Assembly: GCA_030426665.1 (NCBI GenBank)
Contig: JAUHYD010000013.1
Coordinates: 1-64,000 of the forward strand
Direction of reading: 5' to 3'
DNA from: Bacteroidia bacterium
GTDB lineage: Bacteria; Bacteroidota; Bacteroidia; Chitinophagales; Chitinophagaceae
DNA length: 64,000 nt
In this document: one piece after another, positions 11,598 to 12,812 of the stretch
Layout of the letters: every line of letters begins with the position of its first letter
Numbering within the stretch: the first letter of the stretch is position 1
The notes under the pieces: model-generated
What the model saw: the letters and a program-made list of their open reading frames with translations, nothing else
What the model was told of the DNA's origin: nothing
The model's database searches: none
Program-made: the position numbers and the translations under genes

Positions 11598-12812
11598 ATG
11601 CTGAAGGATTTGAAACATTGTTTATTGCTGCTTTTATGGGTAATCACCACGACCTCTTGTAGCAATTCTGACAATAATCGTGCCGACAACTACACCTTTC
11701 GTAGTCTCAAACAGAGCTTTGATGCGGAAGTTATAGTGTCTGGAAAAGCTATAAGAGAGCAGATTGAGATAAACTTTGTCAAAGCACCCAAATTTACCCG
11801 TGAGAAAATGGTGCCGTCGCATAATGCTGCACTAAGTGTTGAAAAGGAATGTGACAAAATACTTGACATAATTCGCGCGGTTGAGGATTCCCTGGATGCT
11901 TTGCTGATTGACTCGTCAAAAAGAGATGACCGAATTGTGAGAAGTTTTATGGTTGACGAAGGTCGCTCCAAACGCTTAAAGAATCTAATTGATGATGCGC
12001 TCGAAAATATGTTGGATTCGACGGGATTGCGGGATACACGTAGGCGACAGCAACTACGCGAGGAGATAAAGGGAAAGCACCAAGACGTTTTTGGTATAGA
12101 CTCCATACTATGGTCACAAGTTCATTTTCAGGGTTCCGGCGATAAAGCGAAAATGGAATTGTCCCGCTTAAAGTTAGAATTTTTAGGTGCCACAAAAATG
12201 GTCGTCGACAATATTATCGAAGGTGCGAATAGTGGCACATCTTGTGGGTACTCAAGGGAATTGGCACTTGCGATACCGAATACCTCTTTCCTGATTTCCG
12301 GTGATAGGCTCGAGGCTTCTGTTTTGCTCGCTATGTTGCCGGACACTGCTGAATACAAGTTGCTCGGGATGAGGTTAGGTGGTAAGGAGCTGGACATTCG
12401 AAATGGCGTTGGTTCCTATGCCGAAACGGTGACAACGCCGGGTATGCATCGTCGAGATGGCTCGGTGTCATTTATACATGCACAGGACAATTATCCCCAA
12501 ACAAGAAACGTAAGATTTGAGTACTTTGTTTGGGAGCCTGTAGTAAGTGTGAAGACTACTGGACCACGCATTATTTATGCAGGAGTACCCAATCAATTAG
12601 ACATTCGTGCGAGTGGTCTTTTTTATAATCAGGTACACGTAACGGTTGACAAAGGTACTCTGACCGGCATTGGCCCTGATTACGTATTAGAAGTTGAAGA
12701 TACTGGTATTGTAACAATGTCTGTATGCGGTAAATTTAAAAATGGGCTCATGCGTGAATTGGATACTGTCGTATTTGAAGTAAGGCGTCCCCAAAACCAA
12801 GCGACGAAGTAA
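11598..12812 (+). CDS. GldM-like lipoprotein (orphan T9SS core-component homologue)
   Basis: Lipobox TTTSC; layout like GldM: coiled N-terminal part, then ALAIPNTSFLISGDRLEASVLLAM, IRNGVGSYAE, PRIIYAGVPNQLDIRASGL, VTVDKGTLTG, TIVTMSVCGK-type segments, VVFEVRRPQ. Confidence 0.55.
   Translation: MLKDLKHCLLLLLWVITTTSCSNSDNNRADNYTFRSLKQSFDAEVIVSGKAIREQIEINFVKAPKFTREKMVPSHNAALSVEKECDKILDIIRAVEDSLDALLIDSSKRDDRIVRSFMVDEGRSKRLKNLIDDALENMLDSTGLRDTRRRQQLREEIKGKHQDVFGIDSILWSQVHFQGSGDKAKMELSRLKLEFLGATKMVVDNIIEGANSGTSCGYSRELALAIPNTSFLISGDRLEASVLLAMLPDTAEYKLLGMRLGGKELDIRNGVGSYAETVTTPGMHRRDGSVSFIHAQDNYPQTRNVRFEYFVWEPVVSVKTTGPRIIYAGVPNQLDIRASGLFYNQVHVTVDKGTLTGIGPDYVLEVEDTGIVTMSVCGKFKNGLMRELDTVVFEVRRPQNQATK

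Follow-up and report, generated by a model that had tools for sequence, protein, structure and literature searches.

What becomes of a GldM that is encoded apart from the gldKLMN clusters, and does it serve the genes beside which it lies? In type IX secretion (T9SS) and gliding, GldM transmits the force of the motor across the periplasm, by a mechanism that is still argued. In the 64 000-nt stretch of Chitinophagaceae DNA analysed here (hereafter the window), a first-pass annotation had placed an orphan GldM-like lipoprotein of about 400 aa some 80 bp behind a deamidase gene and a pro-domain gene on the same strand, and had proposed that three lipoproteins form one exported module, perhaps a dedicated anchor or delivery device. 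The open reading frame (ORF) was found exactly there, at 11598..12812 on the plus strand, with the motifs quoted for it and a product of 404 aa.

Domain architecture and homology

The proposed likeness to GldM was borne out by Pfam, NCBIfam, phmmer, a family profile and fold comparison. Two Pfam domains exceeded their cut-offs, GldM_2nd (D2; residues 223–312, 12264..12533, plus strand; E 4.1e-7, 30.9 bits against 24.4) and GldM_3rd (D3; residues 317–396, 12546..12785, plus strand; E 1.4e-8, 35.3 bits against 25.2), and no other reliable Pfam domain was found in the protein. GldM_1st had no match in this copy, in which helices at about residues 28–213 (11679..12236, plus strand) were recognized as a D1-like bundle by the family profile and by a fold match to D1 of PorM/GldM. 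The C-terminus lay 8 residues past D3, and D4 was absent: a search of the genome for PF12080 (GldM_4th) at E ≤ 10 matched only its two canonical copies. The closest solved sequence found by phmmer was PorM 7cmg (E 6.7e-14, residues 69–365), and a profile built from the six short copies described below reached 7cmg at 4.8e-41, spanning D1 to D3, and also matched 6ey4, 6ys8, 7sax and 7sat. TIGR03517 of NCBIfam matched residues 122–396 (E 7.2e-16) with 58 bits, below its equivalog cut-off of 180. Judged from sequence, the likeness to GldM is far beyond chance, and the ORF encodes a real GldM homologue, with D1 recognized through profile and fold and D2 and D3 through Pfam. We place it in the GldM superfamily by D2, D3 and the PorM/GldM fold, and outside the TIGR03517 equivalog by its score and by the absence of the N-terminal helix, D4 and a gldK/gldL/gldN neighbourhood.

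The AlphaFold model (mean pLDDT 77.5, pTM 0.51) predicted a helical D1-like part (residues 28–213) followed by two beta domains. In the structural comparison with GldM/PorM that the first-pass annotation had called for, 7cmg and 6ey4 ranked first in Foldseek, and VIA aligned the model to 7cmg_B with Z 20.4 over 318 residues at an rmsd of 13.9, indicating that the domains are set at different angles. Taken singly, D1 matched PorLM 7sat_A (Z 19.9, rmsd 2.8 over 178) and D3 matched 6ey6_A (Z 10.7, rmsd 2.0 over 78). The alignment given to AlphaFold included 46 canonical GldM proteins, so the fold match is partly borrowed from these rows and the homology claim is carried by the Pfam, phmmer and profile matches. 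A viral fold search with the model returned Ig-like surface, capsid and tail proteins, as far as the matches were named, and no GldM.

We also considered whether the gene might be a damaged or foreign one. A truncated or frameshifted four-domain GldM was rejected: the end of a converging gene lies 38 bases downstream, and the six short copies all stop at one domain edge. A phage or plasmid origin was likewise rejected, there being no phage match and a single plasmid record, which was a gldM of Parabacteroides at 23.6%.

Canonical GldM in the same genome

The genome (4.62 Mb in 43 contigs) contained two complete gldK-L-M-N clusters elsewhere, each with its own gldM. In the cluster on C22, all four products scored above their cut-offs; in that on C43, GldM (316.2 bits) and GldN (125.2 bits) were accompanied by a GldK just below its cut-off (323.4 against 350 bits) and a GldL below its own (52.9 against 68.3 bits). 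The two canonical GldM proteins scored 316.2 and 280.5 bits with TIGR03517, against the cut-off of 180. The gene following gldN in the C43 cluster (L009:7047-7814) was weakly PorG-like (27.6 bits against a cut-off of 130), and the label SprF was unproven for it, its best family match being PorG, far below that cut-off. The low GldK and GldL scores and the weak PorG-like gene mark the C43 cluster as a divergent T9SS type.

Around the window gene, the flanking ORFs encoded a deamidase, a pro-domain-like protein and an M90 peptidase, and no gldK, gldL or gldN was found among them. The gene is thus alone and an orphan paralogue, as had been supposed, and a genuine extra copy in a genome whose normal motor is supplied by the two gldKLMN clusters. 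A search of the genome for a third GldL as its partner gave a sole match of 34 positions at 18.3 bits, below the cut-off, and this candidate was dropped. Over the BLAST-aligned stretches, the window copy was ∼23–27% identical to the canonical copies of its genome.

N-terminus and predicted lipidation

Where GldM has its transmembrane helix, the protein has a predicted lipoprotein signal (residues 1–21, 11598..11660, plus strand). Its N-terminus, ..WVITTTSC with lysines at positions 3 and 6, matched a PROSITE-type lipobox pattern written for this analysis, with Cys21 (TTSC) as the predicted lipidated residue, in agreement with the signal noted at first sight. By signal peptide and lipobox, the protein is predicted to be a bacterial lipoprotein. 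The canonical GldM N-terminus (..PRQ.M...YLVL..) was absent; the PRQ motif was missing from all six short copies and present in both canonical copies of the genome.

Four of the six short copies had a lipobox-like N-terminus by eye. The strict pattern picked out the expected cysteine in G000 and G027 and a different one, lying four residues before it, in G020, but no cysteine in G007, and the copies of G029 and G012 had no lipobox but only a hydrophobic signal anchor, indicating that lipidation is not a fixed trait of short GldM. The residues from Cys21 onward (CSNSDNN) contained no K-(D/E)2, SDDDD or SDDFE, motifs of a surface-export consensus that was drawn from other Bacteroidota and may differ in the host lineage. 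The passages of PMC5080379 that describe this consensus (LES) concern C. canimorsus, B. fragilis and F. johnsoniae.

Recurrence and phylogeny

Stand-alone short GldM genes were found in 6 of the 35 genomes of the genus (G000, G007, G012, G020, G027 and G029), all of which also hold a canonical GldM. The six reading frames were intact, had the same overall architecture and all ended at the D3 boundary. The other five copies were 21–31% identical to the window copy, and their TIGR03517 scores (39.6–111 bits) were all below 180. The six-copy profile matched in all 35 genomes; having been built from the six themselves, it serves to count further copies, of which there were none in the 35, and not to gauge the strength of the family. 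As sole query, the window protein matched in 98 of 149 relatives, mostly canonical GldM. Beyond the genus, no intact short GldM was found among the matches listed for 394 family and 396 order genomes, in a scan of limited sensitivity that scored up to four first-look candidates per genome; the two sets overlap, and the family set includes 9 genomes of this genus. The short frames checked outside the genus (G039 C37, G067 C163, G477 C434 and G099 C503) ran into contig ends and were set aside.

In a 46-row tree of the D1–D3 columns, the six short copies formed one side of a branch (support 100/99) that lay nearest to the C43-type GldM. Two alternative arrangements with two origins were rejected: one grouped the C22 type with the copies of the window and G029 (p-AU 0.00038), and the other joined those of G020 and G027 to the C43 type (p-AU 0.0024). 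End branches reached 3.7 changes per column, and when four of the six rows were removed, in one of three quick leave-rows-out trees, the remaining pair (window and G029) shifted nearer to the C22 type. Such long branches make a single origin less sure, and we regard the tree as pointing to a likely, but not certain, single origin of the six copies. We define the short GldM clade by a D1–D3-only product, a stand-alone gene, the hinge cysteine described below and a place on this one branch, all of which the window copy shows.

Decay of a duplicated gldM into a relic is improbable. The six frames are intact and, at only 21–31% identity, share both their domain-edge end and the hinge cysteine, and the G+C content of the window gene (0.436; GC3 0.417) resembles that of neighbouring genes. 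What would fit a relic is the very fast divergence, the presence in 6 of 35 genomes and the want of a close second copy by which to gauge selection, the nearest being 31% identical.

Every short gldM was an isolated gene, and the five others lay in four contexts: the copies of G020 and G027 beside a moeA-like gene (a label from our own reading of the start of its ORF), that of G007 after a WG-repeat protein gene, and the remaining two in two unrelated settings. There was no conserved partner gene and there were no T9SS genes among the neighbours of these copies. Short GldM could thus have left the T9SS altogether, and its D1–D3 part might be reused in a new periplasmic role as a lipid-anchored spacer or binding protein. 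Scattered contexts and fast divergence are what such a role would lead one to expect; an overall architecture kept in six of six and a canonical GldM in each of the six genomes argue against it, and we consider it a minor possibility.

A cysteine at the D1–D2 hinge

The D1–D2 hinge loop of the window protein (12234..12260, plus strand; pLDDT below 50 at residues 213–221) contains a cysteine, Cys216, in the motif NSGTSC. The alignment showed a hinge cysteine in all six short copies and in 1 of 40 other GldM rows, an enrichment with a Fisher p of 7e-7 when relatedness is ignored, and 29 of these 40 rows had no cysteine in any D1–D3 column. The motif was SGC or SSC in four short copies, PGC in G027 and TSC in the window copy, whose cysteine lay two alignment columns off the others. 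The one other row with a hinge cysteine was a full-length stray copy in G020. Full-length stray GldM genes outside gldKLMN clusters were seen at L103:4192-5769, L104:4130-5728 and L106:5597-7216; they comprised a very divergent pair (∼23% identical to the C22 type) and one copy 45% identical to the C43 type.

GldM chains swap strands just past the hinge, which makes a disulphide across a short GldM dimer plausible. Passages of PMC12635249 describe disulphides between proteins of this machinery, SprF–GldK and PorG–GldK. A short copy might also strand-swap with full-length GldM, such that mixed dimers lacking one helix and one D4 would throttle or retune the motor in a dominant-negative-like way. 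The D2–D3 pair, the oligomerising part of PorM in passages of PMC5790014, is the best-kept part of the window protein, and canonical partners are encoded in the same genome. However, ∼23–27% identity to these partners makes a mixed swap doubtful, and the hinge cysteine, which both of them lack, argues for self-pairing; we regard mixed dimers as unlikely.

The deamidase neighbourhood

Upstream of the short gldM, and not part of it, lay a gene for a lipoprotein-like protein glutaminase (PF18626; 10023..11165, plus strand, with a likelier start at the ATG at 10050), overlapped by a stand-alone pro-domain-like ORF (11156..11518, plus strand). The stop of the latter was 79 bases from the start of the short gldM on the same strand, close to the 80 bp first given. 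We examined 20 of the 44 deamidase matches with ∼1.5 kb on each side: 15 had an overlapping pro-domain-like ORF next to the deamidase, 17 had a divergent relative of the window gene at 8406-10028, which has a T9SS sorting tail, and no GldM relative lay in the flanks of any of the 20. At one further locus (L053), the contig began close upstream. Window positions 8406-11518 correspond to a locus conserved in the genus, made up of a divergent protein with a T9SS tail, the protein glutaminase and a stand-alone pro-domain copy that overlaps it. The stand-alone pro-domain protein may serve the glutaminase as a free inhibitor or as a chaperone. Several relatives of this protein had no lipobox cysteine in their N-termini.

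PF18626 occurred in 41 of the 149 relatives and in 29 of the 35 genus genomes; at this frequency, with short GldM in 6 of the 35, their joint presence in a genome is hardly informative. In the other five short-GldM genomes, short gldM lay on a contig without the deamidase. With no GldM at the 20 loci and the other copies elsewhere, the adjacency in the window is most simply due to chance. A shared transcript of deamidase and short gldM is conceivable in this genome: no terminator-like site was called in the 79-base gap, the single one lying inside the short gldM. Sigma-70-like sites were at about chance level. The pattern TTTG-N17-23-TANNTTTG, which we take to be the Bacteroidota promoter pattern, had no match in window positions 1-64000, where 3.45 were expected by chance, and is therefore uninformative.

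Export of deamidase, pro-domain protein and GldM-like lipoprotein as one unit has very little probability, with 0 of the 20 examined loci (of 44 matches) containing a GldM, five other copies in unrelated contexts and no published lipoprotein surface-export motif after Cys21, by the consensus from other Bacteroidota. The shared strand, the short gap free of a terminator-like site and the three lipobox-like N-termini had suggested it. Nor did a delivery device find support: the motor-coupling helix, the ring-binding domain and a surface-export signal of the kind published for other Bacteroidota were all lacking.

Interpretation

Our preferred reading, held with moderate confidence, is that short GldM arose from a gldM duplication, was uncoupled from the motor and has been retained as a periplasm-facing, lipid-anchored dimeric rod. 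Both coupling ends are lost, namely D4 and the transmembrane helix embedded in GldL, whereas the D1 stalk and the D2–D3 pair by which GldM/PorM dimerises are kept. Passages of PMC8986121 state that the GldL–GldM interaction relies on transmembrane helices. For PorM, Leone 2018 (PMC5790014) reports an oligomerising D2–D3 part whose two domains exchange strands within the dimer, a D4 that is enough to bind PorN, and a PorK contact that requires D2–D3 together with D4. In most members, a lipoprotein signal takes the place of the helix, and the protein is most likely a lipid-anchored rod facing the periplasm and made of a dimer, which a disulphide at the hinge cysteine probably holds together. Its most likely role is that of an accessory to the T9SS/gliding envelope complex, or a regulator of it, and not of a motor part; an accessory T9SS role is the first guess because the parts it retains are those of which the GldM stalk is built, and which might make contact with it. 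A natural GldM that lacks both couplings and has a new hinge cysteine is a ready means of asking what D1–D3 does alone.

A bolder form, which we think quite unlikely, would have the hinge-disulphide dimer hang by its lipids from the outer membrane, with a polarity opposite to that of the motor stalk, and dock, as a passive strut or a brake, next to either GldM or the GldKN track. If so, the genus would have a third, non-motor stalk and, together with the secreted relatives described next, GldM would be a set of modules reused piecewise in the periplasm.

Relation to known systems

Proteins with only D3 and D4 were observed in the same genus at L107:4242-7425, L108:4410-7330, L109:3924-5788, L110:3306-5284 and L111:4521-5255. 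They were ∼220–270 aa long (one 362 aa), encoded by single genes or by up to four in a row, and apparently secreted, with a Sec-type start by eye; GldM_3rd was above its cut-off in six of six tested and GldM_4th in three of six. A conserved gene starting MQL(S/T)GLYERA lay nearby at four of the five loci. A profile search found no such protein in the genome of the window. A link between the two types was rejected, two of the six short-GldM genomes and ∼10 of the 29 others having a D3–D4-only protein in a tally made by eye that left out a contig-edge frame in G018. Like short GldM, these L107–L111 relatives are domain-reduced and stand-alone, but they keep the opposite half. GldM domains are thus being separated and put to new use within the genus.

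The closest known system is GldM/PorM itself (TIGR03517; 7cmg, 6ey4, 6ey5, 6ey6, 7sat and 7sax), with which the window protein shares the order and fold of D1–D2–D3 and the D2–D3 stretch EP..SV...YAG. Unlike GldM/PorM, it has neither the GldL-binding helix nor D4, carries a lipobox and an extra hinge cysteine, lies outside a gldKLMN cluster and scores below the equivalog level. GldK/PorK, the ring lipoprotein of the T9SS, is likewise lipid-anchored and T9SS-related, but belongs to a different family (TIGR03525) and is no homologue of GldM. Our literature searches gave no description of such a short GldM; the nearest item was a one-sentence remark in PMC5790014 on extra porM orthologues of Flavobacterium johnsoniae, which are likewise GldM-type genes additional to the one in gldKLMN.
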